From the NCBI GenBank assembly GCA_902587165.1, contig CACIKF010000011.1:1-35988 (forward strand): a stretch of DNA of 35,988 bases. The letters run 5' to 3'. The notes beneath the pieces are model-generated. The model was not told where the DNA came from. It made no database searches and worked only from the letters and a program-made list of their open reading frames with translations. Shown here one piece after another: positions 1-15,787 of the stretch (positions are counted from its first letter, which is position 1; every line of letters starts with the position of its first letter). Source of the DNA: Puniceicoccaceae bacterium (lineage in GTDB: Bacteria > Verrucomicrobiota > Verrucomicrobiia > Opitutales > Coraliomargaritaceae). Position numbers and translations under genes: made by a program.

Positions 1-891
1 TATTTAACTAAGTCTCGAGGAGGCAATGATCGCGGCTTGAAACTATTTAACAGTTTAGTGGCTTCCTACGATGGAGATGTTGAACTTGCTTTGAAGCATT
101 TTACCCAAGCTTATTTAGCCTGCGTTGCGTCGGTCGACGAACTGGTGGGACTCATTTTGGATGCGGTAGATCAATCAACTCTCAAAGACAATACCATCAT
201 TGTATTCACCAGTGATCACGGTTGGGGCACAGGTCCTAAAGATTACGTTTATAAAAATTCCCTTTGGGAAGAAAGCACACGTGTTCCATTTATTATTCGT
301 GCGCCCGGAGTTGCCCATAAGGGGGCAGATGTAGCACTGCCAACCTCTTTGGTCGATTTGTATCCAACATTGATTGAGCTTTGTGATTTAAGCGGTGACA
401 CTCGCCGTAACGAGCGAGGTGCTGAAATAGATGGTACAAGTCTTGTGCCATTGATGATTAACCCAACTTTACAAGATTGGGGTGGCCCTGAGGGTGCGCT
501 GACTGCAATTCATAAGTGGAAAGATATGGATCCTATGATGCAGAATTATTCGCTTAAAACCAAGGACTGGCGATATATCCGTTACTATACAGGTGACGAA
601 GAGCTCTACGATCATCGTAGCGATTTGCTCGAATGGGATAATCTAGCAAGTAACCCCGAATATGCCGCTAGGTTGGCTTCTTTCCGCAAGCAACTTGATC
701 AGCGTATAACAATTCGTAATTCAACATCCATAAGTCCACTTGCCAATTCGAAGGAAGCCTCTTCTGATGACGGTGAAAAGTGGAAGAGTATTTACTTCAA
801 AAAATACCCTGAAGCAGATATCAACAAGGATGGCATGCTTACATGGCCCGAATTCAAGCACCATAAAAGCAGCAAAAAATTAGATAATTAA
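1..891 (+). CDS. S1-family sulfatase, C-terminal part (5' end off window), with C-terminal EF-hand loop
   Basis: This is the C-terminal part of a type-I (formylglycine) sulfatase. The frame is open to base 1, so the TTG at 37 is not the real start; the N-terminal half with the Cys/Ser-x-Pro-x-Arg site lies outside the window. What is visible is the second half of the alkaline-phosphatase-like fold: a D-H-G metal-ligand strand (TSDHGWG), then the conserved W-E-E-S-T-R-V-P segment, LYPTL, and a C-terminal subdomain ending in the usual ELYDHRSD turn. The last ~30 residues carry a canonical 12-residue EF-hand loop (D-I-N-K-D-G-M-L-T-W-P-E), suggesting a calcium-binding tail. It is followed after 4 bases by the aldehyde dehydrogenase and heads the visible part of the AHG operon, so the likely substrate is a sulfated galactan oligosaccharide. 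The family call is firm; substrate and SulfAtlas subfamily cannot be read here. Confidence 0.9.
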   Translation, partial: YLTKSRGGNDRGLKLFNSLVASYDGDVELALKHFTQAYLACVASVDELVGLILDAVDQSTLKDNTIIVFTSDHGWGTGPKDYVYKNSLWEESTRVPFIIRAPGVAHKGADVALPTSLVDLYPTLIELCDLSGDTRRNERGAEIDGTSLVPLMINPTLQDWGGPEGALTAIHKWKDMDPMMQNYSLKTKDWRYIRYYTGDEELYDHRSDLLEWDNLASNPEYAARLASFRKQLDQRITIRNSTSISPLANSKEASSDDGEKWKSIYFKKYPEADINKDGMLTWPEFKHHKSSKKLDN

Positions 892-895
892 CTTA

Positions 896-2308
896 ATGGA
901 TATTCAGAATTTCATCGATAACGAATTTGTCGATGGGCTTGAAACTATTGATGTTTTCAACCCCGTCACAGGCGAAAAAGTTTCTCAGGTAGCCAGCGCT
1001 AGCGCACAAGACGTTAATCGTGCTCTGCATGCGGCACAAACTGCTTCCAATACCTACGGCCAACTTTCCATCAATGCGCGAAAAGCTCTCATAGATGAGC
1101 TCATTATCAAATTAAAAGGTGATGAGGCTACTATCGTGGATCTATTGATACAAGAGACAGGTAAAACATACGACGTGGCGAGTTATGATTTTAATATGCT
1201 AGTCGACTGTCTGGGCTATTACGTCGAGGAAGTAAAACGCCATTATGCAGAAACGATTCCCGATTACGATGGTGGTCATCTGAATTTTTTGTCCTATCAA
1301 CCTGTCGGTGTTGTGGCTGGCCTATTAACATGGAATTTCCCCTTATTAAATCTTGGCTACAAATTGGGACCCGCATTGGCTAGCGGGTGCACCTCAGTGT
1401 TTAAAATCTCTGACAAAACACCTATGGCTTCAATGCGAGTTGCCGAGCTGATCAATGAAGTTGCCTTTCCAAAAGGTACGGTGAATATGCTCTGCGGTCG
1501 CGGCAAAGTAGTTAGTGATGCGATGGCTGGGAGTACAATACCGCGTCTGTTGACAATGATTGGTTCGACTTTTGCGGGTCAGAAATTAATCGAAAAATCT
1601 CCCACTAGCGTGAAGCGTTTATCACTCGAACTCGGAGGTGATGCACCGGTGCTCGTTTTTGACGATGCCGATCTGGATGCAGCGGTCGCAGACATAGTAG
1701 GGCTAAAATTAGCGAACGCAGGTCAAATTTGTGTCGCTCCTAATCGTATTTTTGTCCATCGGAATATTTACTCTGACTTCATTGATAAAGCTAAGGTGCT
1801 TATGGAAAGTTATCAATATGTCGGCGAGCAAAGCTCTGGGCCTGAATTGAGTCCGGTGGTCTCTGAAGAAATCCTCAATAGCCTATTGGGTTTCTGCGAA
1901 CCCGAGGTGCATAAGGGAACGATTGTCACTGGTGGTAAGCGGGCAAATCGCCCCGGGTATTTTATGCAAGCAACTTTGATCAAAGATGTAGCACGTGACA
2001 GTGCCTTGACATGTGAAGAAATCTTCGGGCCGATTATGCCCGTCATGCCATTTGATGATGGTGATGATATCTTCTCGATTGCAAATGACACTGAATATGG
2101 ATTGTCGGCATATCTATACACTCAAAACCTTGCTCGTGCTCTCGAGGCCGAGCGTCGCTTACTGTTTGGTAACATCTTGATCAACGAAGCCTATTACTCG
2201 CTGCAATTACCTCACGGTGGCCTCAAGCAAAGTGGATTCGGCAAGGATGTGAGCCATCTAGCGCTCGATGATTATTATGATACCAAGCGCATCTCAATTA
2301 AGCGCTAA
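896..2308 (+). CDS. Aldehyde dehydrogenase, candidate 3,6-anhydro-D-galactose dehydrogenase
   Basis: NAD(P)-dependent aldehyde dehydrogenase superfamily, 470 residues, a typical full length, no signal peptide, hence cytoplasmic. The oxyanion Asn is in TWNFPL (N147), the general base Glu in LELGG (E245), the catalytic Cys in AGQICVAP (C279), and the late CEEIFGP motif is present. Close relatives of this broad group act on succinate semialdehyde, lactaldehyde or glyceraldehyde. The neighbours (enolase-superfamily cycloisomerase 12 bases downstream, then KDPG-type aldolase and KDG-type kinase) make oxidation of 3,6-anhydro-D-galactose to the anhydro-galactonate the best inference, as in carrageenan degraders. 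The cofactor loop reads GCTSVFKISD rather than the commoner GNTVVLKPS pattern, so cofactor preference is open. No clear ribosome binding site precedes the ATG; translation may be coupled to the sulfatase stop 4 bases upstream. Confidence 0.88.
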   Translation: MDIQNFIDNEFVDGLETIDVFNPVTGEKVSQVASASAQDVNRALHAAQTASNTYGQLSINARKALIDELIIKLKGDEATIVDLLIQETGKTYDVASYDFNMLVDCLGYYVEEVKRHYAETIPDYDGGHLNFLSYQPVGVVAGLLTWNFPLLNLGYKLGPALASGCTSVFKISDKTPMASMRVAELINEVAFPKGTVNMLCGRGKVVSDAMAGSTIPRLLTMIGSTFAGQKLIEKSPTSVKRLSLELGGDAPVLVFDDADLDAAVADIVGLKLANAGQICVAPNRIFVHRNIYSDFIDKAKVLMESYQYVGEQSSGPELSPVVSEEILNSLLGFCEPEVHKGTIVTGGKRANRPGYFMQATLIKDVARDSALTCEEIFGPIMPVMPFDDGDDIFSIANDTEYGLSAYLYTQNLARALEAERRLLFGNILINEAYYSLQLPHGGLKQSGFGKDVSHLALDDYYDTKRISIKR

Positions 2309-2320
2309 GACTTCGTTATT

Positions 2321-3472
2321 ATGAAAATTGTCGATATTCAATGTTTTCCCTTACGAACTGATTTGAGCCGAGCAATCGGTTTCTCACAGTGGTATTATCA
2401 TGCCAAGAATAACTTTGTTCTCAAAGTGGTGTGTGACGATGGCACAGTGGGCTGGGGAGAGTGCTATGGGCCAAACCTAGCGATCGCCGCATCGATAGAG
2501 CATCACTTCAAGCCTTTGCTTATCGGTAAGGACCCTCTGCAAAACGAGGTTTTGTGGAACTTCATGTGGCGCGCGTATTGCGACTTTAATCGCTATGGCA
2601 TTTTTATGGCAGCCATCTCGGGAATCGATATTGCGCTCTGGGATATCAAGGGAAAGGCGCTCAATACACCTGTTCGCGTTTTGCTAGGTGGTTCTAGCAA
2701 GCCCCTGCCTTGTTATGCAACTGGCATGTATTACCGTGACGATAAGCCTGAAGCCGAGATGCTTGCTGAGCTAATCGATGAAGCGGCTACTTATGTCGAT
2801 GCAGGTTACACATTCCTCAAGGTGAAAGTGGGGAAGAACTTGGAATTTGATAAAGATTTGATTGCTCAATTTCGTAATCGATTCCCTAAAACAAAAATCG
2901 CAGCTGACTCGAATCACGCCTACAATTATAAGGAAGCGGTTGCGATCGGTAAGGTTTTGGAGGCAAATGATTATTGCTGGTTTGAGGAACCGCTATCACC
3001 TGAAAATTACGCTGATATGGCGCGCCTACGTAAGGTCTTGTCAGTGCCCATTGCTGCCGGCGAATGCGAGCAAACGCGCTATGGCTTCGAGCGCTTTGCC
3101 AGTGCGCGAAGTCTCGATATTTTTCAACCAGATATCGCTTACTGTGGCGGTATTACTGAGTTTCAAAAAATCAATGCATTGGCCTCCGCAGCACATGCCG
3201 ATGTTGTGCCGCACTGTTGGGGCTTGAAGATCAACCAGGCTGCGGCTGCATCGGCGATTAGTATGGTTCCTGAAAATCCGGGGCGTTTCGAACGTCGTCC
3301 GGTATTTCTAGAAGTAGATCAAACCGAACACCCTATTCGTGATACTATTTTTTCAACAGCTCATGATGTCATTGATGGAAAACTACACTTTAATGACTTG
3401 CCGGGGCTCGGCGTCATTATTGATGAATCGGCGATGGAGCCCTTCGTGATCGATCCCAAGGTGAAAGACTAA
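2321..3472 (+). CDS. Enolase-superfamily (mandelate racemase/MLE group) cycloisomerase or sugar-acid dehydratase, candidate 3,6-anhydro-D-galactonate cycloisomerase
   Basis: 383-residue member of the mandelate racemase/muconate lactonizing enzyme group. An N-terminal capping domain (about 1-125) is followed by the barrel with the K-x-K pair (KVKVG, K167/K169), three Mg2+ ligands (D196 in AADSN, E222 in WFEEP, E248 in AAGECE), D271 and H298 in VPHCWG. The SGIDIALWDIKGK stretch and the C-terminal PGLG motif recall galactarolactone cycloisomerase (Gci) more than galactonate or fuconate dehydratases. Gci opens a sugar lactone ring to a keto-deoxy acid, chemically close to opening the 3,6-anhydro ring of AHG acid. 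With an aldehyde dehydrogenase before it and aldolase plus kinase after it, the inferred product is 2-keto-3-deoxy-D-galactonate. Superfamily assignment is firm; the substrate is inference, and an aldonate dehydratase is the main alternative. Confidence 0.85.
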   Translation: MKIVDIQCFPLRTDLSRAIGFSQWYYHAKNNFVLKVVCDDGTVGWGECYGPNLAIAASIEHHFKPLLIGKDPLQNEVLWNFMWRAYCDFNRYGIFMAAISGIDIALWDIKGKALNTPVRVLLGGSSKPLPCYATGMYYRDDKPEAEMLAELIDEAATYVDAGYTFLKVKVGKNLEFDKDLIAQFRNRFPKTKIAADSNHAYNYKEAVAIGKVLEANDYCWFEEPLSPENYADMARLRKVLSVPIAAGECEQTRYGFERFASARSLDIFQPDIAYCGGITEFQKINALASAAHADVVPHCWGLKINQAAAASAISMVPENPGRFERRPVFLEVDQTEHPIRDTIFSTAHDVIDGKLHFNDLPGLGVIIDESAMEPFVIDPKVKD

Positions 3473-3507
3473 ACTAGCTTCGCAGTCGTTAGATAATTTA
3501 AACTGGT

Positions 3508-4173
3508 ATGAAACATTTATTTACTTCTGAAATGCGTCAGCAATTGGCTGCTTCCCGCGCAATTGCAACTGTGACTGTGCAGAATGTCGAAGATGCTAAG
3601 CCACTAGCTGATGCGCTGTTGGCAGGGGGGATAAATGCAGTGGAGATTACCATGCGTACACCAGCTGCATTAGAAGTGATGAAAATCATTGCTGATAACT
3701 ATAGCGAGATGCTGGTGATGGCCGGCACCGTGATTACGCCGATCCAAGTGCGACAGGTGCAAGACGCCGGAGCGACTTGCGCAGTGGCTCCGGGGATGAA
3801 TTCATGCGTGCTGCAGGTGGCTATTGAAGCTCAGTTGCCCTTCGCGCCAGGTGTCGCGACTCCCAGTGAGATTGAGCAAGCATTGGAGTTCGACTGCGAC
3901 ATCTTGAAATTCTTTCCAGCAGAGCCAATGGGAGGGCTTAAATATTTAAAAAGTATGCAAGCACCGTATGCGCATCTTGACTTACAGTTCATTCCGCTAG
4001 GGGGACTGACTGCTGAGAATGCAGAAGACTACTTGCGAGACGACATTATCTTAGCCGTCGGTGGTTCATGGATAGCCAGTGCATCTGCAATTACCTCAGG
4101 TGATTGGGTGGGGATCACAGAGCGATCGGATGCGGTCATGCAGCAATCAGAATTAGAGAGTAATACAAATTAA
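3508..4173 (+). CDS. Eda-type 2-keto-3-deoxy-6-phospho-aldonate (KDPG/KDPGal) aldolase
   Basis: Class I aldolase of the KDPG/KHG family, 221 residues, the normal length. The Schiff-base lysine is K134 in LKFFPAE; E46 and R50 lie in VEITMRTP, the conserved Glu and phosphate/carboxylate-site strand; the GGSW motif near the C-terminus binds phosphate. It cleaves a 2-keto-3-deoxy-6-phospho-sugar acid to pyruvate and glyceraldehyde-3-phosphate. Paired with the kinase that begins one base after its stop, it forms the lower half of an Entner-Doudoroff or DeLey-Doudoroff branch. In this operon the likely substrate is 2-keto-3-deoxy-6-phosphogalactonate (the DgoA reaction), although the sequence looks more Eda-like than DgoA-like and such enzymes often accept both epimers. 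Cytoplasmic. Confidence 0.9.
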   Translation: MKHLFTSEMRQQLAASRAIATVTVQNVEDAKPLADALLAGGINAVEITMRTPAALEVMKIIADNYSEMLVMAGTVITPIQVRQVQDAGATCAVAPGMNSCVLQVAIEAQLPFAPGVATPSEIEQALEFDCDILKFFPAEPMGGLKYLKSMQAPYAHLDLQFIPLGGLTAENAEDYLRDDIILAVGGSWIASASAITSGDWVGITERSDAVMQQSELESNTN

Positions 4174-4174
4174 T

Positions 4175-5266
4175 ATGAAAAAAGTAGTGACCTTTGGAGA
4201 AGTGATGGTACGTCTCGCGCCCAGTGAGCATGATCGTTTTGCACAATCCTGCCCTGGCTCGATGGATCTGACTTTTGGCGGTGCAGAGAGTAGTGTGGCC
4301 GCATCGATTTCGATCTTGGGTGGCAGTTCGCGCTTTGTAAGTGCCTTGCCGCAGCACGCCATTGCCGATGCCTTTGTCCGTCAGATGCGTGGATTCAATG
4401 TCGATGTGGACCATGTATTACGACGGGAAGCAGGTCGTTTTGGTATTTACTATGTTGAAACTGGCGCAAATCAACGTCCTAGTCGTGTGATTTATGACCG
4501 TGATTACAGTGCGGTTTCGATCTGCCCAGGCGAGGAGTATGATTGGGATGCTATCTTTGCAGATGCTCAATGGTTACATATTTCTGGTATTACCTTGGCA
4601 ATTTCAGAGACGGCTGCAAATGCGGCGATTTTGGCTGCCGTAAAGGCGCAGGCCGCAGGTATCAAAGTTTCCTGTGATTTAAACTTCCGTAAAAATCTAT
4701 GGCGCTGGCGATCAGGTTCGGATGCGCGTAGCTTAGCACGTTCTGTTATGCCCGATTTTCTTGAGAACGTGAATGTTATCATTGGTAACGAGGAAGATGC
4801 AGCTGATGTCCTTGATATCCATGCGGGTGATACGGATGTTCACTCAGGAAGTTTGGAGATTGCCCACTATCCTGATGTGGCTCGTCAAATTGCTCATCGC
4901 TTTAATAATGTGGATCAAGTTGCGATCACTTTACGCGAGAGTATTTCTGCAACACATAATAATTGGGGCGCAATGCTGTTCAATGTTAGTAGTGATACTG
5001 CAGTATTTGCTCCCATGAATGGTGAACAGTATGAACCGTTTGAGATTCGTAATATAGTCGACCGAGTAGGCGGTGGTGATTCATTTGCCGCAGGTTTGAT
5101 TTATGCGATGACGAAAAAAGATTTCTCTACGGCTCAAGATCAGGTTGATTTTGCTGTGGCAGCATCCTGCTTAGCTCATTCGGTCAAGGGGGACTTTAAT
5201 TTCAATTCACGCGCTGAGGTAGAAGCTTTGGCCCATGGCAATGCATCTGGACGTGTGCAACGCTAA
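4175..5266 (+). CDS. PfkB-family 2-keto-3-deoxy-gluconate/galactonate kinase
   Basis: Ribokinase/PfkB sugar kinase of 363 residues, at the long end for the family. An N-terminal substrate-binding signature (FGGAESSVAASISILGG, residues 34-50) is followed by the second PfkB motif DRVGGGDSFAAG (296-307), with D302 as catalytic base and GGGD in place of the commoner GAGD. That variant is familiar in KDG kinases, and the overall pattern (MRLAPSEHDRF-like start, DLNFRKNLW in the middle) fits KdgK. It would phosphorylate the keto-deoxy acid made by the upstream cycloisomerase, using ATP, to feed the aldolase encoded one base upstream. An extra segment around residues 212-235 (HAGDTDVHSG region) may explain the length. 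2-keto-3-deoxygluconate and 2-keto-3-deoxygalactonate cannot be told apart from sequence alone. Cytoplasmic. Confidence 0.88.
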   Translation: MKKVVTFGEVMVRLAPSEHDRFAQSCPGSMDLTFGGAESSVAASISILGGSSRFVSALPQHAIADAFVRQMRGFNVDVDHVLRREAGRFGIYYVETGANQRPSRVIYDRDYSAVSICPGEEYDWDAIFADAQWLHISGITLAISETAANAAILAAVKAQAAGIKVSCDLNFRKNLWRWRSGSDARSLARSVMPDFLENVNVIIGNEEDAADVLDIHAGDTDVHSGSLEIAHYPDVARQIAHRFNNVDQVAITLRESISATHNNWGAMLFNVSSDTAVFAPMNGEQYEPFEIRNIVDRVGGGDSFAAGLIYAMTKKDFSTAQDQVDFAVAASCLAHSVKGDFNFNSRAEVEALAHGNASGRVQR

Positions 5267-5282
5267 CGCTAGCTCAACTATA

Positions 5283-6803
5283 ATGAAAAGACTTTCAATT
5301 ACTTTGGTTTTTGCATGCCTTAGCTGTTCAGTGTTATCAGCTGAGGAATATTATATTGATTCACTTCATGGCGATGATGCTGCTGCGGGGACTTGTCCAG
5401 AAACTGCTTGGTCGAGCCTTCAAGCGGCGAACCAGCACGCGTTTAAGCCTGGCGATGTGATTTACCTTCACAGTGGACAGATATTTGACGGGCAGTTTCG
5501 CCCGATATCTTCGGGTGCAGATGGCCAGCCGATAACACTGACCAGTTACATGGATGGACCGAAGCCTGTGATTGCAGGTCATGGTTTGACACGCTCCGCG
5601 GTCTTTCTTGAAAACTTATCGCATTGGGTAATTGATAGCATTGAGATTACCAACACAGGAAATTCACGTGAAGCAAAGCGGGTTGGGGTATTGGTTTTTG
5701 CCAAGAATATAGGCTTGGTTCAGGACATTACGCTAAGCAATTTGTTAGTTCGTGATGTCAATGGTGTGATCTCTAAGGATAAAGGTGGTGGCACTGGGAT
5801 TCGTTGGGAGGTCGATACTCGGAAGATACCTACTAAAATCGACAATCTGCTGATAGAGAATTGCCATGTATTGCGCTGTGATCGAGATGCGATCAAAGGT
5901 TGGATGGAACCTTGGGATGATTTATCACACCTTAGCACTAATGTGGTGATCCGCGGCAATTTACTCGAAGATATTGGCGGTGATGGGATCGTGCCAATCG
6001 GCACCGATTTCGCTGTGATTGAACACAACCGCCTTTATAGCGCTCGTCAGCGCATCGAGGGTTTAGATACTAAAGAAGTCACACAGCATGCCGGACCGAG
6101 TATCGGCATTTGGCCATGGAGTAGCATGAATACGCAAATCAGATACAACGAAGTCTGGGGCTATGCTGGCACTTTCGACGGTCAGGGGCTAGACTCGGAC
6201 TATAATTGTGAGGGCACTGTTTTTGAATATAATCTTAGTGCAGATAATGCGGGTGGATTCTTCCTTGTTTGTGATTGGTCAAAGCACAGAGATTCGGGTC
6301 AATCTATTGGTAATAAAAATACCATTATTCGCCATAATATCAGTTTTAATGATCATCTGCGTGGCTTTGTCCTTTGTGGTCCCATCTGCGGGGTGAAGAT
6401 CTATGAGAACATTGTTTATAATACGATTGAATCAGAGTATCAGTTAATTGTTGATACACCTTGGGAAGCTGGTCGCTTCGCTGAATCGGTAGAGGTGCGA
6501 GATAACCTTTTTTACACGACTGGCCTTGCTCGGATCTATCAGGGCACTTGGGATGGTAGCGGCATGGGGCTTTGGAAGTATCAAAAGCCAATTAACCAGG
6601 AGACGGTGCGCTTTAGCGGAAATGCCTATTCGAATATTCTGAATCACAAAGAGCCTAGTATGCAGTCACTTTTAAAAGAAGAGACCCTGACGAGTTTAGT
6701 TAAGCGCTTAAGGGTAGACCCAGCTACTCGCGCAGGGTTTGACAAAATGTTTAATTTCCTAGAAGACTCGCGTTATTACAGTCGTATTAAACAGGCACTT
6801 TAA
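5283..6803 (+). CDS. Secreted right-handed parallel beta-helix protein, probable glycan-active enzyme of unassigned family
   Basis: 506 residues from the ATG at 5283. A longer frame opens at 5235 but overlaps the kinase end, and only the internal ATG gives a clean signal peptide (MKR, hydrophobic core, cleavage near A20-E21). The mature start reads YYIDSLHGDD...G...AWSSLQAAN, the usual opening of DUF1565/PbH1 beta-helix proteins, followed by repeated V/I-x-x-N-x-I/L strands over about 100-400. A conserved-looking acidic patch DGQGLDSDYNC (299-309) and the preceding IGIWPW motif are characteristic of a family seen beside sulfatases in planctomycetes and relatives; it may hold the catalytic site. 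Parallel beta-helix fits glycoside hydrolases such as GH82 (iota-carrageenase), GH120 and GH141, and several lyase families, but I cannot assign it to one. It lies 16 bases after the kinase, last in the operon, so it probably works on the same polysaccharide outside the cytoplasm. Confidence 0.8.
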   Translation: MKRLSITLVFACLSCSVLSAEEYYIDSLHGDDAAAGTCPETAWSSLQAANQHAFKPGDVIYLHSGQIFDGQFRPISSGADGQPITLTSYMDGPKPVIAGHGLTRSAVFLENLSHWVIDSIEITNTGNSREAKRVGVLVFAKNIGLVQDITLSNLLVRDVNGVISKDKGGGTGIRWEVDTRKIPTKIDNLLIENCHVLRCDRDAIKGWMEPWDDLSHLSTNVVIRGNLLEDIGGDGIVPIGTDFAVIEHNRLYSARQRIEGLDTKEVTQHAGPSIGIWPWSSMNTQIRYNEVWGYAGTFDGQGLDSDYNCEGTVFEYNLSADNAGGFFLVCDWSKHRDSGQSIGNKNTIIRHNISFNDHLRGFVLCGPICGVKIYENIVYNTIESEYQLIVDTPWEAGRFAESVEVRDNLFYTTGLARIYQGTWDGSGMGLWKYQKPINQETVRFSGNAYSNILNHKEPSMQSLLKEETLTSLVKRLRVDPATRAGFDKMFNFLEDSRYYSRIKQAL

Positions 6804-7041: not shown

Positions 7042-8652
7042 TTAGAATGTTGATGGCTTCAATTCGCCGAAAGTGCCCGGTAGAGTTTCAAGTTGTGTTA
7101 TTAGGGCGGCTTGCATTTCCGCGAGGACAGAAGCATGCCGAGCATCGCCGGCAAGGTTGCTTTGTTCGTTTGGATCGCTGGCAAGGTTATAGAGTTGATC
7201 GCGCTCAAAATAGGCGGGGTAGGAACCAGTCGATTTTTTTTCTGCGTCGCCGCCACCAGGAATGGCTGTGAGGTGACTGAAGGGTTGAGTGGGGTCGTCG
7301 GTTACAATATTGAGCTGACGACGATAGCGTGCATCGTTCCATTCTTTTAGTACAGCGGCTCGTTCCTCGAGGTTCATATTTTCAATGGCTTCGGGGTAGC
7401 GGATGGCCATGTATTTCCAGTCACCAATGCGGACACCGCGGGCGTAGCCGAGTTCAAAGTAAAGTAGGCGTTCCTCGGGAGGGGACTCTCCTTCGAGGTA
7501 AGGGAGGAAACTTTGACCATCAAATTTGTGTTGTGAATAATCAACTTGGGCGAGGTCCAAGATAGTCGGGGCAAAGTCAACATTTGAGATGAGCGCCTGA
7601 GAAGTGGCTCCCGTAGGGAACCCGCCTTTACGCCAAACGATGCTAGGGTTATGGACGCCACCTTGGTAAATTGTGCCTTTGGCAAGTTGGCCATGGTCGT
7701 TAAAGAAGAAGATCACGGTATTGTCAATTTCCCCGGTGGCTTCGAGAGTATCAAGGAGGGCACCGAGCGCGTCATCAAGCCAAAGGAGATTGGCGGTATT
7801 ATCGTTAACAGGAAGGCCGGCGGCGCGTAGGCGTCTAGGAATAGTGTCACGGCTGGGTTGAACAGTGAGAGCTTTGTCGAGGTAACCGATCGCAGTCAGG
7901 CGGGGATCGGCTTTCCAGGAGCGCTTTGCTTGAGTAGGGCCATGCGGGACTGTAGTAGCGAAGTAGAGGAAGAAGGGGTCGGTATGAGGTTGTCTAAGAA
8001 AGCGCACACCAGCGTCGGTGATCCAGTCCATGTTTTGAACAGCGACTTCATAGAGTCCGAGAAAGCTGGGGTTGTTGTGATACAGGCTGTCGGCGAAATC
8101 GAAGCCGATCTCAAGCATAGCTTGGCGTGTGTGCTCGTGGTTGGCTCTGAGCTGAGCTTTGTTGGCAGGATTATGGGCGCTACCTTTGAAGTTTTTAAAA
8201 CGCTTCAGGCCACTTACTTCTACGACGTGGTCTTTGCCAGCCATCCCAGTGGTGTAACCGGCGGCTTTCAATAGCGCGGGTAGGGTGCGGTCAGTCGAAA
8301 GAATATGGGTGTTGAATTCAACAATGCTTTGTCCGTTCTTCTTGGTATTTTGTGTAAAGTAATGGTTTTGTGCACGGCTGCCAAAGTTGCCAGTGAGGAC
8401 GTTGTAACGACTTGGAGTGCAGACGGGAGAAACCACATGCTGCTGAAGCATGAGGGTGCCTTCGCGGGCGAGGCGGTCGAGATTGGGGGTTAGGTATTTA
8501 TCCTTGCCCTGCTGAAGACAATTGAAGTGGTTGGGCAGCATATCATCGGCAATAAAGAAGATGATGTTTGGGCGCTCGGCGTGAGCCTGCATAAACAGGC
8601 TGAGACCAGCGAGGGCAAGTAGGGTAAGGCTACGTTTCATGATAGATTGCAT
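7042..8652 (-). CDS. Secreted S1-family sulfatase with C-T-P-S-R active site
   Basis: 536-residue formylglycine sulfatase. The signal peptide MKRSLTLLALAGLSLFMQAHA starts at the second Met (8640), with the first ATG at 8652; cleavage is expected before ERPN. Metal ligands D36-D37 lie in FIADD, and the modified residue is C78 in VCTPSR. A second metal-site strand reads FFNDHGQ, with G-x-x-H-N-P-S-I-V after it, where many other sulfatases have an R-V-P or R-x-P segment. The C-terminal subdomain ends with the DQLYNLASDPNEQ turn. It hydrolyses a sulfate ester, presumably on a sulfated galactan, outside the cytoplasm. It is last in a three-gene minus-strand unit, 14 bases after the next sulfatase, and is clearly divergent from that neighbour. 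Cysteine-type maturation needs a formylglycine-generating enzyme, which is not in this window. Substrate position unknown. Confidence 0.92.
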   Translation of the reverse strand: MQSIMKRSLTLLALAGLSLFMQAHAERPNIIFFIADDMLPNHFNCLQQGKDKYLTPNLDRLAREGTLMLQQHVVSPVCTPSRYNVLTGNFGSRAQNHYFTQNTKKNGQSIVEFNTHILSTDRTLPALLKAAGYTTGMAGKDHVVEVSGLKRFKNFKGSAHNPANKAQLRANHEHTRQAMLEIGFDFADSLYHNNPSFLGLYEVAVQNMDWITDAGVRFLRQPHTDPFFLYFATTVPHGPTQAKRSWKADPRLTAIGYLDKALTVQPSRDTIPRRLRAAGLPVNDNTANLLWLDDALGALLDTLEATGEIDNTVIFFFNDHGQLAKGTIYQGGVHNPSIVWRKGGFPTGATSQALISNVDFAPTILDLAQVDYSQHKFDGQSFLPYLEGESPPEERLLYFELGYARGVRIGDWKYMAIRYPEAIENMNLEERAAVLKEWNDARYRRQLNIVTDDPTQPFSHLTAIPGGGDAEKKSTGSYPAYFERDQLYNLASDPNEQSNLAGDARHASVLAEMQAALITQLETLPGTFGELKPSTF

Positions 8653-8666
8653 AAAGATTCAGGATT

Positions 8667-10166
8667 TTAAAAGGAATGGATGGAATTATAAAGTTTGCTA
8701 GAGAGTTCTGCGACCACCGTTTTGTATCTAGGATCGTTCACGAGATTTTTTTGTTCAAGGGGATCGGTGGCGTAGTCGTAGAGTTCCGTCGCGGCGATTT
8801 GATCACCGAGTTGGCTAGAACCGCCACCGGTCACAAACCATGCTACGAAACGGTAGCGATCATTGCGGAGTGCGTAACCCATTTTTTTACCAGCAGGAAA
8901 TTGACTAAGGGCAAATTCCCGAGGGCGGATGTTCTGGTTGTGGATGGTAGGGGCTAGATTAATGCCATCGAGTGTATCAGGTATTTGAATACCAGCTAAG
9001 TCGCAGAGGGTGGGGAAGAGATCAGTCAACTCGGCGGGCATTTCGGTTTTTTGAGTTTTAGCGCCTGGATGCGCAATAATGAGTGGCACGCGAGTGGCCT
9101 GTTCGTAGTTGGTATGCTTGCACCAAAGGCCGTGGTCGCCGAGGTGCCAACCGTGGTCGCCCCAGAGAACGATGATGGTGTTTTCGGCTAGGCCACTTTG
9201 TTCAAGTTGATCAAGGATCTTACCGATTTGAGCATCAATATAGGCGACACAAGCATAGTAACCATGGATGAGGGTGCGTTGTGTGCTTGGATCGAGGGGT
9301 CCGCTGGCAGGTATGCCGTTATAGGATCTAAGCTCTGAGGAATTATGGCTGGCGTAAGTGGGCGCACCGATTGGTGCTTCTTGGTAGGATGCTAATTGTA
9401 TACTTTTTGGATCGAATCGATCCCAGTATTGCTTAGGGGCAACAAAGGGAAGGTGCGGTTTTTTAAAACCGACTGCGAGGAAGAAGGGTTTCTTCTTCTT
9501 GGCTAGTTTGGAGAGACTTTTGACGGCGTGAGCAGCGATGGCACCGTCGTCGTAAGCATCATCCGGTATATCTAGTGCTTCAACTGCAGGCCATGCGTTA
9601 TTTGCAAAGAGCTTTTTATTAATGGCATTCCAGTTGGCGTTTTTTTCTTCTGCGGCAAGGGTCTTGCTTTTCGAATTGTGGTAATGGCCGATGGGCTTGC
9701 CAGTTTTTTCATTATACTTGAGGTGCCATGTTTGCGTATAAGCTTCGCTCCAAGAGCGTGAATCAGATCCTTTGTCGACGCTACGAGGATCGAATATTTT
9801 GCCGACTCCAGCGGTGTGATACCCGTTGTTTTTAAAGTGTTGCGTGAGGGTGACGATCTCCGGATGGATGGCACGTATTTTTGTTTTTAGATCCCAGATT
9901 TGGGTGAAGTCAGGATATTTTCCAGTCATTGCGCTGGCCCGAGAAGGGCCGCAGACGGCCTGCTGGCAATGGGCATTCAAGAAAGTGGTGCCTCGCGCCG
10001 CAATACGATCCATGGCAGGCGTAGGGACAGCCTTAGTATAAGCTCCAATGCTTGGTTTCAGATCATCGATCGCTATGAAGAGGATGTTAGGCTTTTCCCC
10101 AGCCAATAAAGAAGCTACCAAGATAAGGCTCGTGAAGTGAAAACTTATTGTGGGGATTCTTTTCAT
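8667..10166 (-). CDS. Secreted S1-family sulfatase, iduronate-2-sulfatase-like
   Basis: 499 residues with a signal peptide (MKRIPTISFHFTSLILVASLLAG, mature end EKPN). FIAIDD supplies the Asp pair (D34, D35), C72 in AVCGPSR is the residue converted to formylglycine, KKPHLPFVAPKQYW carries conserved active-site Lys and His, and WGDHGWHLGDHG gives the second metal pair. The arrangement matches iduronate-2-sulfatase-like enzymes (SulfAtlas S1_7 type), a group that also includes sulfatases of marine galactan degraders. Its ATG overlaps the stop codon of the GH-A gene upstream by one base (TAATG), so the two are translationally coupled. It is a paralogue of the sulfatase at 14333-15787. The natural target, probably a sulfated galactose or anhydrogalactose, is inferred from context. 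Confidence 0.92.
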   Translation of the reverse strand: MKRIPTISFHFTSLILVASLLAGEKPNILFIAIDDLKPSIGAYTKAVPTPAMDRIAARGTTFLNAHCQQAVCGPSRASAMTGKYPDFTQIWDLKTKIRAIHPEIVTLTQHFKNNGYHTAGVGKIFDPRSVDKGSDSRSWSEAYTQTWHLKYNEKTGKPIGHYHNSKSKTLAAEEKNANWNAINKKLFANNAWPAVEALDIPDDAYDDGAIAAHAVKSLSKLAKKKKPFFLAVGFKKPHLPFVAPKQYWDRFDPKSIQLASYQEAPIGAPTYASHNSSELRSYNGIPASGPLDPSTQRTLIHGYYACVAYIDAQIGKILDQLEQSGLAENTIIVLWGDHGWHLGDHGLWCKHTNYEQATRVPLIIAHPGAKTQKTEMPAELTDLFPTLCDLAGIQIPDTLDGINLAPTIHNQNIRPREFALSQFPAGKKMGYALRNDRYRFVAWFVTGGGSSQLGDQIAATELYDYATDPLEQKNLVNDPRYKTVVAELSSKLYNSIHSF

Positions 10167-12517
10167 TAGAGTCCCGTGCGGATGATGAAGCCAAGGTCGT
10201 CCAAGTAAATGTCACCCGTGATCGGCGCTTGGGATTGTATTTGAAAACGGAGTCCGTAGAGCTTCGCCATCGCATCGAGTTCTTCGGGCTGGGTTACTTT
10301 AAGAGCGAAGGGTTTCCATTCGCCAATAATATCTGATAGTTTTATCGAACCTATTGGCATCCAGTGGTTGGCGTCGCTTTGGAGGATAATATTAATTTGC
10401 GCTTTGGGGTCGGCGCATTCTAGATTGTGAGCGGCCCGGAGTTGACCTGTTACGCCGTTGGCATTTGCGAAGGAGAGTTTCTCACTTGGTAATGGTTCAA
10501 AGTGGAATAGTAGGTCGGCATCACGTTTTGGGGTTTCTCCATTTAGTCGAGCGGCTGCCACGTACTGGTTCGGTTTGACAGAAGATTCAGAGCCAAGCGC
10601 AAAGGTGCTTTTTGCCTGCCATTCGTAAATCGGGTTGTCGAAGGTCCAGTTCGTGTAGGCGCGTTCTTCAAGTGCCACAAGTTCGACGCTATGACTGGCG
10701 CTGTGTTTACCTGAGCGCGCGTGGATTGTAATCTTTCCTGCGCCTCTTGGTGTCACGGTGAAGGCTGCCACGGCATTATCCAGTTCAAGCGAAGTTTGAC
10801 TCAGTGAGGCAGGCCCATCAATGCTAAGCTGAATGGTTTCGACTGATTGAAGGTAGGGGAGCTTGGCTTCGGGGTCACTGGCAATGACCCAAGCTTCGAT
10901 TGCACGATCAGCCGGCACGCGGTCTGGTAGGCTAAGTTGGAGTGATGGTTTCTTTGCTGAGCTTGCTGGCGTATGGCTACTAGAGCCTTGGTTTGTCCAT
11001 GGTAGTTCGAGCACGTTAATGCTAAACTTCGGCAAAGTAATTGTGTCGCTATGATTGACGGTGATTTGTCGAACCGCGGGGGGACGACTCCAGAGTGGTT
11101 TACGGGCGTGGACATCCCAGAAATATTCGGCACTTGAGTAGGTATGCAGTTGCCCTTCAAGTTCGCTGGCGCCCTTGATTTTAAATGCGATGGTGGCTTC
11201 TTTGGTCTCGGAAGTATTGATCAGCATAATTTGTAAACCTGTATCTGAACGAGTAACAAAACTCTTTACTGAGTCCATACCGGAGAGGTCACTTTTTAGC
11301 ATCTCGCTGCCCATTAAATTACTCCACATCCAGAGTGCCCAGTATTGACTTTTTGGCATCACAGACATGTTGCCTTCATTAATATAAAATGTGCTATGAC
11401 CACCTTCTTCTGTGTAGGTGGTGAGGTCCCATTCGTTAGCGAAATCAACGCCCTCTTCAAACATGACCCCAATCCAGAGTGCTGACCAGAGAGCACTGAT
11501 TAGTTCGGCGGTGTCGCGGTCCTCATTGACCTTGATATTCCATTCGCTAATTCCGATTTCAATTTCATCGATACGCTGGGGCTGATATTTGCTGATCCAG
11601 CCATTAACGCGTTTGATCGCTTTGCGAAGATCTGAAACCGCAGCAAATTTATCTGAATTCTGGTGCGTATTCACTCCAACTGGGTAGGCATGTATACTAA
11701 TGAAATCCACAGCGTCGCCACCATCGCGTATCAATTCTGCGACGAAGCTAAGTGACAAGTCGGAGCAAGCGGGACCGCCGAGGTGTATGTCGGGATCGAT
11801 TGCGTGCATTGCCTTGGCAAATTCGATAAAGCGTTGCGCGTAGGTCGTGCCGTCCATGGAGGATCCGTCGGGAAGCCGATGTCCCAATTCCCAGTCGCCA
11901 TTAAGTTCATTGCCGACCTCCCAGTAGCGCACATCATAGCCTTGTGTTTGGTTGGCCCATTTGACCCATTCGGCAGCGAGTGCTGGCGTTCCAGAACCCA
12001 CGTTGACAGTTACCATTGCCTTGGCGCCGAGACTATTAATCCACTCGTGTTGGGTCTTAACATCCAGATCGCCATGATAATCGGATAGCTGACCTTCTTC
12101 GCCATGTAGTCGGAAACCCTTCTTGTATTCAGAGTAGTCGACCTCCCAGCTACCATCGGCACGCTGCTTAGAAAGGTCAAAATTTTCAATGCCATGGTCA
12201 TTGCCGCCGATACGAACCCCGTTACCGTTCCAATAATATTCGTTCGACCATGAACCACCCGGTATTCGAATGGATCCAGGATGCCAGTCGCGAATTGCTT
12301 CTTGGAAGTTTGTATTCTCTATAATGGGGAGGCGACTCCACAGTGAGAGGTTGGTGCCAGTGAGACGATCCGGGTCGGCTGTTTGAACAACCTCGTCTAT
12401 GTCAATACTGAGAGTGACATCTACTGAACCTACTGATGCGTAGGAACTAACATGCAAGAGTGCGACGATGGCTAGGGTCGTCATCGATTTAATGTATTGA
12501 GGTAAGTGAAAAGCCAT
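10166..12517 (-). CDS. Secreted clan GH-A glycoside hydrolase, GH51/GH39-like, with C-terminal accessory domains
   Basis: 783 residues from the ATG at 12517; an in-frame TTG at 12529 is possible, but the ATG fits a signal peptide (hydrophobic TTLAIVALLHVSSYA). The (beta/alpha)8 domain covers about 45-400: IRIPGGSWSNEYYW (83-96) resembles alpha-L-arabinofuranosidases, the acid/base is E204 in WEVGNEL, H276 lies in SIHAYP and the nucleophile is E325 in GISEWN. A beta-sandwich (about 400-510) follows, then an Ig-like module (about 525-630) and a galactose-binding-like module ending with DIYLDDLGF, probably carbohydrate-binding. GH51-like relatives cleave arabinofuranosides, but sitting first in a unit with two sulfatases it more likely cuts a sulfated polymer backbone or side chain. 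Clan is secure; family and substrate are not. Confidence 0.82.
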   Translation of the reverse strand: MAFHLPQYIKSMTTLAIVALLHVSSYASVGSVDVTLSIDIDEVVQTADPDRLTGTNLSLWSRLPIIENTNFQEAIRDWHPGSIRIPGGSWSNEYYWNGNGVRIGGNDHGIENFDLSKQRADGSWEVDYSEYKKGFRLHGEEGQLSDYHGDLDVKTQHEWINSLGAKAMVTVNVGSGTPALAAEWVKWANQTQGYDVRYWEVGNELNGDWELGHRLPDGSSMDGTTYAQRFIEFAKAMHAIDPDIHLGGPACSDLSLSFVAELIRDGGDAVDFISIHAYPVGVNTHQNSDKFAAVSDLRKAIKRVNGWISKYQPQRIDEIEIGISEWNIKVNEDRDTAELISALWSALWIGVMFEEGVDFANEWDLTTYTEEGGHSTFYINEGNMSVMPKSQYWALWMWSNLMGSEMLKSDLSGMDSVKSFVTRSDTGLQIMLINTSETKEATIAFKIKGASELEGQLHTYSSAEYFWDVHARKPLWSRPPAVRQITVNHSDTITLPKFSINVLELPWTNQGSSSHTPASSAKKPSLQLSLPDRVPADRAIEAWVIASDPEAKLPYLQSVETIQLSIDGPASLSQTSLELDNAVAAFTVTPRGAGKITIHARSGKHSASHSVELVALEERAYTNWTFDNPIYEWQAKSTFALGSESSVKPNQYVAAARLNGETPKRDADLLFHFEPLPSEKLSFANANGVTGQLRAAHNLECADPKAQINIILQSDANHWMPIGSIKLSDIIGEWKPFALKVTQPEELDAMAKLYGLRFQIQSQAPITGDIYLDDLGFIIRTGL

Positions 12518-12529
12518 AAGAGGGATCAA

Positions 12530-12764: not shown

Positions 12765-14213
12765 ATGGATTCCTCGATTACCCCAAATAATGCGACCGCT
12801 GCAGCTGACCGTGTGCCCTTGAAGCAGAAATTAGCTTACGGATTGGGAGGTCCTGTAGATATTTTAGCGATCTGGGTTTTTGTTTCGATTGCTTATCCTG
12901 TTTTTAATATGGAACTCCAGATGTCTCCGACAAGAGTAGCTGTCATTCTGATGGCACTGCGCCTGTGGGACGGCATAGCAGATCCGGTCATGGGATGGAT
13001 TTCGGATAATACACGTTCTCGCTGGGGGCGCCGCCGTCCCTTTATCTTTATTGGGGCAATTTTAGCTGCAATTACTTACCCTTTAATTTGGTGGTTCCCC
13101 ATGGACCTTTCGCACGACCAGTTGATGATTTGGGTGATTGGTTTTGGTATATTATTTTACACCTGCTTCACGATTTGGGCAGTGCCGTTTCAAAGTCTGC
13201 TGATGGAGATGACTCCAGATTATGACGAGAGGACTAGAGTTACAAGTATACGTGGAATTTTCCAAAGCTTGGCGGGTTTGTTTAATGGGTTTTGTTGGTG
13301 GCTTTCCCTGCGCCCAGTTTTTAGTATGACCAACGAAGCAGGCGAGTTGGTGCCAAGTACGATCAACGGCATGCGATACATTAGCCTCGGGGTCGCTTTA
13401 ACTATTCTAATTTTGGGTCTCTTGCCCGCCTTGTTTGTCAAAGAGCGTTACTACAGGAGTGGTCTTGTTAAATCACAAAAACGAGTGAGTCTTTTCAAAG
13501 GCTTAAAGACTACTTTAAGTTGCGGACCCTTCCTAGTATTGTGTCTTTTTACGGTGCTATTTCTTTTCGGGCAGAGCATTTACGATAACTATGGACGTTA
13601 CGTGGGGACTTATTATGTCCTTGGAGGAGATTGGGAAAAAAGTGCACTAATCACAAGTTGGGGGACATTAGTATATGTAGTTTTTAATCTTTTTATGATT
13701 CCAGTATTTGCCCGAATTTCCGAGAGAATTGGTAAGAATAAATGCCTCCTTAATGCGTCCTTTTTCTTTCTCTTTTCGGCAACATTAACCTGGTACACCT
13801 TTACGCCTGAGCAGCCTTACCTTATGTTAGTGAACGGGGCCTTTCTGGGGGTCGCATACGCGGGTCTGTGGACTATGCTACCAACCATGCAGACCGATGT
13901 TGTCGATTATGATGAGCTCAAAACCGGGGCCCGCCGAGAGGGTAGCTTCGCCTCAGTCTATTCTTGGGTCCTAAAATTAAGCTTTTGTACCGGATATCTA
14001 CTCTCTGGACCATTCTTAGAGATGACAGGTTTTGATGCCGCTTTAGGCGGAGAGCAATCTAGCGAGACACTCAAGCACTTACGGCTAGGTTTTGTATTTA
14101 TCCCTATGATCGCAGCAGCACTTGCTATTGCGATGTTAAGATTTTTCCCAATCGACCGAAGTAAAGCTATTGAAATTCGTGCGTCCTTGGAAGCACGCCG
14201 GGGCGCTCTATAA
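12765..14213 (+). CDS. GPH-family (MFS_2, MelB-like) sugar:cation symporter
   Basis: 482-residue inner-membrane transporter with about 12 hydrophobic segments, of the glycoside-pentoside-hexuronide:cation symporter family. The family signature lies after helix 2: RLWDGIADPVMGWISDNTRS (66-85), whose D69 and D73 correspond to the cation-coordinating aspartates of MelB, followed by the basic RWGRRRP loop. The central DERTRVTSIR loop and the late VVDYDELKTGARREGSF motif are also diagnostic. It is first in a unit with a sulfatase and a GH1 enzyme and divergent from the GH-A unit, so it likely imports the mono- or oligosaccharides released outside. It is the only transporter in the locus, and no TonB-dependent receptor is encoded here. 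The sugar and the coupling ion are not determinable. Confidence 0.92.
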   Translation: MDSSITPNNATAAADRVPLKQKLAYGLGGPVDILAIWVFVSIAYPVFNMELQMSPTRVAVILMALRLWDGIADPVMGWISDNTRSRWGRRRPFIFIGAILAAITYPLIWWFPMDLSHDQLMIWVIGFGILFYTCFTIWAVPFQSLLMEMTPDYDERTRVTSIRGIFQSLAGLFNGFCWWLSLRPVFSMTNEAGELVPSTINGMRYISLGVALTILILGLLPALFVKERYYRSGLVKSQKRVSLFKGLKTTLSCGPFLVLCLFTVLFLFGQSIYDNYGRYVGTYYVLGGDWEKSALITSWGTLVYVVFNLFMIPVFARISERIGKNKCLLNASFFFLFSATLTWYTFTPEQPYLMLVNGAFLGVAYAGLWTMLPTMQTDVVDYDELKTGARREGSFASVYSWVLKLSFCTGYLLSGPFLEMTGFDAALGGEQSSETLKHLRLGFVFIPMIAAALAIAMLRFFPIDRSKAIEIRASLEARRGAL

Positions 14214-14332: not shown

Positions 14333-15787
14333 TTGAATTATTCAAATTTGCTCACATGTTTTATCGCTTTGCTAGTATCTTTAACTGCTAGCCTTTCACT
14401 AGTTGCAAAACCGAACGTTCTGCTACTCGCGATCGATGACTTACGTCCTGAAATAGGATGTTACGGAGCCACGCACATGGTCACTCCTCATATGGATCAT
14501 TTAGCTGACCAATCGATGCGCTTCGACCGGGCATATGTTCAGCAGGCAGTTTGTCTACCTTCCCGCATTAGTTTATTCACAGGGATGCGCCCTAATTCTA
14601 CGGGGGTGCATGATTTACAGACCAAATTTAGGGTCACAATTCCTGAGGCGGTAACGATCCCCCAGCACTTCGCCGCACATGGATATGAGACTATTGGCAT
14701 GGGAAAAGTTTTCCATGACGAACAGTGGAGAGAGTGGAGTCAATGGATCGATACAAATAAGTTATCAGGCGTAAAACCCTACCAGAACCCAGAAACCCAA
14801 GAGAAGATTAAAGCCCTAAGACAAGAGGCTCGGCAAAAAGGTCTCAAGGGTTCCAAATTACTGCGCTATACTAGGGGGCCAGCCTTCGAGAAGGCTGACG
14901 CTCCTGATGAGTCGTATCATGACGCTGCGATGACAAGCCGCGCTATTGAGAAACTTAAAGAAGTGAAGGACCAAGCATTTTTCATGGTCGTAGGGTATAA
15001 AAAACCACATCTTCCATTTGTCGCACCGAAGCAGTACTGGGATCTTTACGATTTCGATGCGATACAATTACCCGAAAATTACTATGCTCCTAAGGCAGCA
15101 CCCAGCATAGCTCAGATGAGCTGGGGCGAATTAAGGGCCTACTCGGGCATTCCAGAAAAGGGTCCGGTAGATACCATGACAGCGCGCCACTTAATCCATG
15201 GTTATTACGCTACCGTGAGTTTTGTAGATGCACAAATAGGTCGTTTGATGGAGGCTCTAGAAAAAGAAGGCTTAGCAGACAATACTATAGTCATTCTCTT
15301 CGGCGATCATGGTTTTAAGATTGGAGAGCATGCTATGTGGTGTAAGCACACGAACTATGAAATCGACACCCGCGTTCCATTTTTAGTTAAAACTCCTTGG
15401 CCATCTCTAAAAGCTGATAGTACTGCTGCTCTAGTTGAGCTCTTAGATCTGTATCCAACTTTATGCGATCTTGCAGCCCTCCCGACTCCTGATCAGTGCG
15501 AAGGATCCAGCCTATTGCCATTGTTGAAAGATTCTCAGGCGCCTTGGACGGACTTAGCCTACTCACAATACCCGCGTCATGGCGGAGTTATGGGCTATTC
15601 CGTTAAATCACCTTCTGCTCGTTATACCGAATGGAGAAGCAGGAAAACCAATGCTATAATCGCACGCGAATACTACGACCACCACATTGATCCTGATGAA
15701 AATAACAATGTAGCAGATAAGCGAGAGTATCAAAGCGAGATGACTCGATTATCAGTGACCTTAAATAAGAACCTTATAAATAAATAA
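14333..15787 (+). CDS. Secreted S1-family sulfatase, iduronate-2-sulfatase-like paralogue
   Basis: 484 residues from a TTG start at 14333. No ATG lies upstream before an in-frame stop (14282), and the TTG gives a signal peptide (MNYSNLLTCFIALLVSLTASLSLVA, mature KPNV). LLAIDD carries the Asp pair (D35, D36), C74 in AVCLPSR is the formylglycine residue, and KKPHLPFVAPKQYWD plus FGDHGFKIGEHA complete the active site. It shares long stretches with the sulfatase at 8667-10166, including the GYY(A/C)xVxxxDAQIG helix and WCKHTNYE, so the two are paralogues in opposite operons. It also has an insertion of about 25 basic residues around 145-170 (EIKALRQEARQKG region). Its stop is only 2 bases before the GH1 start. 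Substrate unknown, presumably a sulfated galactose unit. Confidence 0.92.
   Translation: MNYSNLLTCFIALLVSLTASLSLVAKPNVLLLAIDDLRPEIGCYGATHMVTPHMDHLADQSMRFDRAYVQQAVCLPSRISLFTGMRPNSTGVHDLQTKFRVTIPEAVTIPQHFAAHGYETIGMGKVFHDEQWREWSQWIDTNKLSGVKPYQNPETQEKIKALRQEARQKGLKGSKLLRYTRGPAFEKADAPDESYHDAAMTSRAIEKLKEVKDQAFFMVVGYKKPHLPFVAPKQYWDLYDFDAIQLPENYYAPKAAPSIAQMSWGELRAYSGIPEKGPVDTMTARHLIHGYYATVSFVDAQIGRLMEALEKEGLADNTIVILFGDHGFKIGEHAMWCKHTNYEIDTRVPFLVKTPWPSLKADSTAALVELLDLYPTLCDLAALPTPDQCEGSSLLPLLKDSQAPWTDLAYSQYPRHGGVMGYSVKSPSARYTEWRSRKTNAIIAREYYDHHIDPDENNNVADKREYQSEMTRLSVTLNKNLINK

Follow-up and report, generated by a model that had tools for sequence, protein, structure and literature searches.

The contig CACIKF010000011.1 of a Puniceicoccaceae bacterium (GenBank assembly GCA_902587165.1; genome G000, 1.85 Mb in 28 contigs, 79% complete) was analysed over its entire length of 35,988 nucleotides (contig C11, hereafter the window). 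Its first 6,803 nucleotides hold an operon that is, with high likelihood on the grounds of sequence comparison, a catabolic module for 3,6-anhydro-D-galactose (D-AHG) in marine Opitutae-type Verrucomicrobiota; a polymer of carrageenan type is the likely source of the sugar. The assignment was made because of the trees and nearest enzymes in the PDB and because the same four enzymes lie beside a glycoside hydrolase (GH) of family GH127 in distant relatives. In the proposed route a DauA-type dehydrogenase would convert the aldehyde to 3,6-anhydro-D-galactonate, a DauB-type cycloisomerase would open the ring to give 2-keto-3-deoxy-D-galactonate, a PfkB-type kinase would form the 6-phosphate, and an Eda-type aldolase would split this into pyruvate and glyceraldehyde-3-phosphate. 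Secreted sulfatases would remove sulfate from a sulfated galactan of carrageenan type, and a secreted, retaining GH136-like beta-helix hydrolase would cut the oligosaccharide. This hydrolase could be the alpha-1,3-anhydrogalactosidase itself, or it could act as an exo-biosidase that frees a neocarrabiose-like disaccharide; either way it would take over the work done elsewhere by the GH127 enzyme DagA. The operon is composed as follows:

1..891, + strand: sulfatase S0, C-terminal part, cut by the contig start (Pfam Sulfatase and SGSH_C)
896..2308, + strand: aldehyde dehydrogenase (ALDH), probably DauA-type (3,6-anhydro-D-galactose dehydrogenase; best PDB match 6PNU; tree)
2321..3472, + strand: enolase-superfamily cycloisomerase, probably DauB-type (3,6-anhydro-D-galactonate cycloisomerase; best PDB match 5OLC; tree)
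3508..4173, + strand: Eda/KDPG-family aldolase, candidate for the DauD role (PF01081, 199 bits; co-location)
4175..5266, + strand: PfkB-family 2-keto-3-deoxy sugar-acid kinase, candidate for the DauC role (PF00294; PDB 2AFB)
5283..6803 (open reading frame open from 5235), + strand: GH136-like beta-helix glycoside hydrolase, predicted secreted (PDB lacto-N-biosidases; Asp pair)

Pfam families of the six open reading frames (ORFs) were, in order, sulfatase (C-terminal part), Aldedh (421 bits), MR_MLE N- and C-terminal domains, KDPG/KHG aldolase, PfkB and Beta_helix. Intergenic gaps were recomputed as 4, 12, 35, 1 and 16 bases, the last of which presupposes a start of the beta-helix gene at 5283, where a signal-peptide-like N-terminus was judged by eye; started at 5235, the gene would overlap that of the kinase. 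The original prediction of a compact six-gene operon was thus right in genes, positions and gaps and wrong in calling it fused to the sulfatase and beta-helix genes, which are merely adjacent. The order ALDH, MR/MLE, Eda, PfkB, beta-helix recurs in L003, L004, L005, L006, L007 and L055, so the arrangement is not a product of chance (the ALDH gene of L005 is truncated by the contig end, L006 lies on the same contig as L054, and in a further locus, L002, the contig stops inside the aldolase gene). A contig scan for relatives gave six loci, all from metagenome-assembled genomes named Opitutae, Opitutia, Opitutaceae or Puniceicoccaceae, with cycloisomerases 95–97% identical to that of the window in four and 72–74% in two. 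The records of the named relatives refer to North Sea and ALOHA samples, and the sample names suggest open-water organisms. In L004 (2737–3919) the ALDH gene lacks about 110 middle codons and reads as two ORFs, which is either a broken gene or an assembly fault.

For the dehydrogenase (896–2308) the best PDB match was 6PNU (345 bits), followed by a succinate-semialdehyde dehydrogenase (SSADH) at 291 bits. 6PNU was deposited with the Pseudoalteromonas PS47 carrageenan paper (PMC6923384); there DauA, a 3,6-anhydro-D-galactose dehydrogenase whose structure was solved, is described as NADP-dependent. 6PNU was taken as the PS47 DauA because its molecule is named aldehyde dehydrogenase and because it stands in the tree beside the gene of Pseudoalteromonas carrageenovora. 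In this tree of 25 rows, 16 rows were held together with a support of 100/99.9, namely the window and its relatives, 6PNU, and the DauA proteins of P. carrageenovora, Flammeovirga and Persicobacter; grouping with SSADH was rejected in the approximately unbiased (AU) test (p-AU 1e-7). On phylogeny and the nearest characterised enzyme, the window ALDH is very probably a D-AHG dehydrogenase of DauA type.

The cycloisomerase (2321–3472) matched 5OLC with 313 bits, the Gci structure 4GGB (AtGci) with 239 bits and the 3,6-anhydro-L-galactonate cycloisomerase 5XD7 with 128 bits; 5OLC is the DauB of Zobellia, which was assayed on 3,6-anhydro-D-galactonate (PMC5698469). A first tree of 33 rows placed the window in one clade with 5OLC (support 99/98). 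In AU tests on this tree a grouping with Gci was rejected (p 0.024), a grouping with the Pseudoalteromonas-type DauB was not quite rejected (0.064), and a single clade uniting the window with both the Bacteroidota-type and the Pseudoalteromonas-type DauB stood unrejected (p 0.368). After removal of three long-branch rows and addition of six relatives the same clade was obtained, again at 99/98, and both the Gci grouping (0.0425) and the Pseudoalteromonas-type grouping (0.032) were rejected. The metal ligands D194, E220 and E246, the base K166 and the acid H296 (AtGci numbering) are all present. There are 38 positions at which DauB of Bacteroidota type and the Gci clade have different fixed residues; the window enzyme carries the DauB residue at 21 of them, the Gci residue at 4 and neither at 13, and an FSQW motif in its flexible lid is among the DauB-matching positions. 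By its place in the trees and its nearest characterised relative, this protein very probably is a 3,6-anhydro-D-galactonate cycloisomerase of DauB type.

The kinase had its best PDB match in 2AFB, a 2-keto-3-deoxygluconate (KDG) kinase (265 bits). Clusters of Flammeovirga and P. carrageenovora carry a 2-dehydro-3-deoxygalactonokinase of the DgoK family and no PfkB homolog in either stretch. A search of 9 verrucomicrobial genomes for DgoK (PF05035) found it in none, with positive controls in E. coli and Caulobacter, and PfkB is therefore the candidate for phosphorylating 2-keto-3-deoxy-galactonate, if it is phosphorylated here. The aldolase is of the Eda family and occurs together with ALDH, MR/MLE and PfkB genes in G011, G090 and five genomes of family code f49. 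The DauC role of the kinase and the DauD role of the aldolase, assigned by family and conserved context, are candidate assignments. The D-AHG enzyme set of the original prediction was upheld by the phylogenetic check, since ALDH and cycloisomerase group with D-AHG enzymes and not with SSADH or Gci. The further claims of a lineage without SusCD and of an organisation unlike the Bacteroidetes and Pseudoalteromonas versions agree with the absence of SusD (PF07980) from 7 of 7 genomes of this and related groups (control positive in a Bacteroides), and with the PfkB kinase, the DgoK result and the lack of an adjacent GH127.

The distribution of the module was followed in a sample of the order and in one of the phylum. 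The cycloisomerase (P0003) had a match at E 1e-60 in 15 of 132 order genomes, 11 of which were placed in the tree (G048, G078, G099 and G111, all of family f8, were left out); six fell in the DauB clade (G000, G010, G124, G011, G090 and G062) and five outside. The four f8 rows included in the tree lay outside the clade. At 1e-80, 9 of 387 phylum genomes matched, all nine in the DauB clade. DauB-clade enzymes were thus present in five verrucomicrobial family codes (f1, f4, f11, f13 and f49), with the PfkB-type kinase alongside in three, and all four window-type enzymes occurred together in G011, G090 and the f49 genomes G332, G163, G480, G403 and G208 (tblastn located the ALDH of L105 and L108, the aldolase of L103 and L108 and the kinase of L108, as the ORF caller keeps the longest overlapping frame). 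The G332 cluster (L103) is 58% (kinase), 51% (aldolase), 43% (ALDH) and 46% (cycloisomerase) identical to the window. It also encodes a GH127, a RhaT-type symporter and a GH16: the GH127 shares 62% identity with the one in the dau cluster of Flammeovirga, the symporter 47% with Flammeovirga, and the GH16 37% with a GH16 of the P. carrageenovora cluster. In G090 (L057) the four enzymes stand with a GH127 that shares 64% identity with the same Flammeovirga GH127. Because the same four enzymes adjoin GH127 in G332 and G090, the enzyme types of the window are tied to a carrageenan-like context.

The closest PDB matches of the beta-helix protein were the lacto-N-biosidases 6KQS (113 bits) and 5GQC (106 bits). 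Its D315 and D322 correspond to the acid/base D568 and the nucleophile D575 of ErLnb136 (PMC7335108), and both are conserved in all 23 aligned rows (an alignment without a row for L053); the related LnbX is a retaining enzyme (PMC8106489). An AlphaFold model was mediocre (pLDDT 65.6 from 6 sequences) and was taken only as agreement with the sequence matches; with this model, the top 6 folds in Foldseek were all lacto-N-biosidases. The protein was considered alone, and it has no room inside for the helical GH136_I partner, as the PDB match begins at residue 34–39. The gene follows that of the kinase in all seven copies that reach that far (window, L003–L007 and L055), and a GH42 beta-galactosidase gene lies directly after it in L006, L007 and L055, so that a desulfated oligosaccharide could be trimmed by the beta-helix enzyme and GH42 in turn. 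Close members of the subfamily (>500 bits) were found in 4 of 132 order genomes, all four among the six with DauB-clade enzymes; the corresponding co-occurrence figure of 1.2e-6 ignores relatedness (3 of the 4 genomes are of one family) and was not used as support. Tentatively, the enzyme may be a replacement glycosidase, that is, an alpha-1,3-(3,6-anhydro)-D-galactosidase or a neocarrabiose-releasing biosidase in place of GH127/GH129-like enzymes. As a separate observation, G084 holds three GH136-like beta-helix genes close together (L083, 4550–12502; 27–40% identical to that of the window) and has no P0003 match at 1e-60.

Within 17 kb the operon is followed by three more sulfatases with the C-x-P-S-R motif, a GH39/arabinofuranosidase-like gene, a GPH symporter and a GH1:

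7042..8652, - strand: sulfatase S1 (CTPSR; Pfam, motif; conserved in L003 and L005)
8667..10166, - strand: sulfatase S2 (CGPSR; Pfam, motif)
10166..12529, - strand: GH39/arabinofuranosidase-like glycosidase (PF01229 26.2 bits, cut-off 26; PDB arabinofuranosidases about 53 bits)
12765..14213, + strand: GPH-type sugar:cation symporter, candidate importer (PF13347 227 bits; gph 186 bits, under its cut-off)
14333..15787, + strand: sulfatase S3 (CLPSR; Pfam, motif)
15790..17190, + strand: GH1 glycosidase (PF00232 487 bits)

L003 and L005 share part of these surroundings, L004 does not, and the operon itself was therefore regarded as the core; from about 20 kb on, the window genes are mostly housekeeping by Pfam. 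For the truncated S0, a full-length 93% homolog with a CAPSR motif is present in L004. Further S0 homologs occur in L055 (58%), where the gene immediately precedes the operon, in L006 (47%), about 6 kb away on the upstream side, and in the distant L107 of G403 (54%), where it adjoins the kinase gene; a close one was not found in L007. In L082 of G011 a 46% homolog of S2 is followed by a second sulfatase, then a GH42-like gene and finally a beta-helix homolog. Near the operon in L006, L007 and L055 there is a sulfatase 40–42% identical to one of the P. carrageenovora cluster. The same three loci carry a divergent cassette upstream of the dau operon (L006 3702–8207, L007 3558–8111, L055 1–4371) that encodes two sulfatases, an AraC regulator and a protein of 260 aa to which no Pfam family was matched; none was seen in the window lineage, whose contigs all end within about 1 kb past the first sulfatase, L004 reaching farthest.

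The genome G000 as a whole gave 62 sulfatase-family matches in its 1.85 Mb. Its one GH127, on contig C1, was set aside as a DagA candidate (32–33% identical to the Flammeovirga proteins; relatives in G124 at 70% and in G011 at 58%), and a GH16 pair beside sulfatases on contig C2 was rejected as a carrageenase locus, both proteins being nearest to laminarinases. With GH127 distant and GH16 laminarinase-like, anhydrogalactose would be freed by an enzyme other than the recognised ones, to judge from the incomplete genome. A search for DagB-like GH129 proteins with PF11308 gave 0 of 6 genomes, and as the control gave no match either, nothing follows from it. Two other proteins of these regions were recorded: a 966-aa protein between sulfatase genes of G000 (L060, 2009–4909) matches HZS_alpha, the hydrazine synthase alpha middle domain, with 110 bits, and a 1161-aa protein without a Pfam match lies beside a laminarinase-like GH16 (L061, 8196–11681), with a 56% homolog adjoining the G010 GH16.

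Several of these results weigh against the assignment of the operon to D-AHG, and against carrageenan as the source, and were considered together with the alternatives. A galactarate/galactonate-type route, with the enolase-superfamily enzyme as Gci or an aldonate dehydratase and the ALDH as a semialdehyde dehydrogenase, draws on the best NCBIfam matches (dehydratase and aminobutyraldehyde/succinate-semialdehyde dehydrogenase models, all under their cut-offs) and on Gci as second PDB match of the cycloisomerase; DauB and Gci have all catalytic residues in common, so these residues do not discriminate, and the Gci grouping was rejected weakly in both trees. This route is nevertheless highly improbable: the SSADH grouping was rejected clearly, the two Gci-clade loci examined have TRAP, amidohydrolase and kdgD genes but lack an ALDH over a distance of 4 kb, and genes of the window type adjoin GH127 in G090 and G332. 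An L-anhydrogalactose route from agar would run through the same four steps with the same enzyme families, agar and carrageenan differing in the enantiomer (PMC5698469), and the ALDH tree was built from a set without an L-AHG dehydrogenase. It, too, has very little probability, given the far lower score of the cycloisomerase to the L-form enzyme 5XD7 than to DauB and the GH127 genes of the bridge clusters. That the module serves another 3,6-anhydro-aldose, or D-AHG from a planktonic polymer other than carrageenan, is unlikely but of more weight. It would suit the North Sea and ALOHA samples named for the relatives, the lack in G000 of a carrageenase-like GH16 and of a GH127 of the carrageenan-cluster type, and the nearness of the kinase to a gluco-type KDG kinase, which also counts against the D-AHG reading; opposed to it, the same kinase and aldolase types occur in the GH127-bearing clusters of G332 and G090. 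The original description as a carrageenan-type locus is accordingly retained for the D-AHG pathway enzymes, while carrageenan itself is no more than the likely polymer: the single GH127 of G000 is a distant one, GH127 is absent from G010 (99% complete), and no carrageenase-like GH16 was found in the 79%-complete G000, in a search that did not extend to GH82, GH150, GH167 or sulfatase subfamilies. The GH127 proteins of G332 and G090 are termed DagA-type because their genes adjoin dau genes, an arrangement known from the polysaccharide utilization locus (PUL) of Zobellia, the comparison having been made without a characterised DagA.

For the GH136-like protein there is an appreciable chance that it is unrelated to anhydrogalactose, acts on another glycan and is merely situated downstream. 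Sphingobium, Enterococcus and others have plasmid-borne homologs at 25–36% identity, and genomes that lack the pathway have homologs at about 40%; among 16 order genomes with a beta-helix match at 1e-10, only five have a DauB-clade enzyme, and P0003 went unmatched at 1e-80 in three of the seven phylum genomes that gave a beta-helix match at 1e-60. In G011 the homologs sit on contigs other than the dau contig, none is present in the clusters of G090 or the f49 genomes, and G332 has homologs elsewhere in its genome. Against a chance neighbour stand the confinement of the close subfamily to genomes with DauB-clade enzymes and the position after the kinase gene in every copy that reaches so far; that the GH127-bearing clusters of G090 and G332 lack the beta-helix gene fits a replacement of GH127, though the cases are few.

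The D-AHG chemistry is known from other bacteria, and what differs here is the PfkB/KDG-type kinase and the added GH136-like enzyme, a possible replacement of a known one. With the D-AHG operon reading, the system is extended to Verrucomicrobiota, beyond the four phyla in which carrageenan systems were found by Ficko-Blean et al. (PMC5698469), which do not include it. In genomes with dau genes and without GH127 (e.g. G010) the missing anhydrogalactosidase step is testable with one candidate gene. If the organisms live in open water, the question arises which plankton polymer carries D-anhydrogalactose; if the replacement proposal is true, free-living pelagic Verrucomicrobiota would use a D-anhydrogalactose polymer of unrecognised planktonic source. 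A study of diatom blooms describes their Verrucomicrobiota as consuming sulfated methyl pentoses and also mentions sulfatases of carrageenan type (PMC8857213), and growth on carrageenan is reported for Pontiella, where the accessible parts of the papers do not mention dau genes (PMC7356697, PMC10880615, PMC6388578). A literature search, with most subscription papers outside its reach, showed among the matches listed neither a D-AHG operon in Verrucomicrobiota of Opitutae type nor a GH136 enzyme that takes part in carrageenan use; in Flammeovirga, GH136 is among the families enriched on the replicon with GH82, GH127 and GH167, and no link to carrageenan is drawn in the accessible text (PMC8653839). 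Plasmids of Roseibium (L087), Sulfitobacter (L088, typed as conjugative) and Paracoccus (L089) carry DauA/DauB-like pairs, 53–56% and 66% identical to P. carrageenovora, with GMC oxidoreductase and ABC transporter genes (in Roseibium also TRAP) and no glycosidase annotated in the stretch, which looks like scavenging of free anhydrogalactose.

Compared with the GH136 enzymes LnbX and ErLnb136 (PMC7335108, PMC8106489), the window protein has in common the beta-helix, the acid/base and nucleophile Asp and the tryptophan of the WPW motif; it differs in its low identity (20–23% in fold alignments), in being without the GH136_I domain and in its context, which is of galactan type and not that of milk oligosaccharides. 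The carrageenan core dagA, dauA, dauB and dauD was reported from 30 species, with species without known carrageenases noted (PMC5698469); dauA, dauB and dauD (the last by family and place) are together in the window, and a DagA-type GH127 was not found in the 79%-complete genome. With the PUL of Zobellia galactanivorans (dauA–dauD; PMC5698469) the window shares DauA- and DauB-clade enzymes, a 2-keto-3-deoxy-6-phosphogalactonate-type aldolase step and sulfatases; it differs in the PfkB instead of the DgoK-type kinase, in the GH136-like gene within the operon and in being without SusD and, as far as found, without a GH127 of the carrageenan-cluster type. The CarPUL of Pseudoalteromonas (PMC6923384; P. 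carrageenovora plasmid, L086) has a DauB of another, proteobacterial clade, DgoK and DgoA, adjacent TonB receptors and GH16, and no beta-helix homolog within 37 kb; it has the DauA clade in common with the window, and it too is reported to lack GH127/GH129, its anhydrogalactosidase being still to be found (Hettle et al., PMC6923384). The plasmid dau clusters of Flammeovirga and Persicobacter (L022, L064) differ in their two GH127 genes (one in the Persicobacter stretch), RhaT symporter and DgoK-type kinase, and in these stretches, unlike the window, there is no PfkB or beta-helix homolog; their DauB proteins form the sister clade of that of the window, and the DauA clade is shared.

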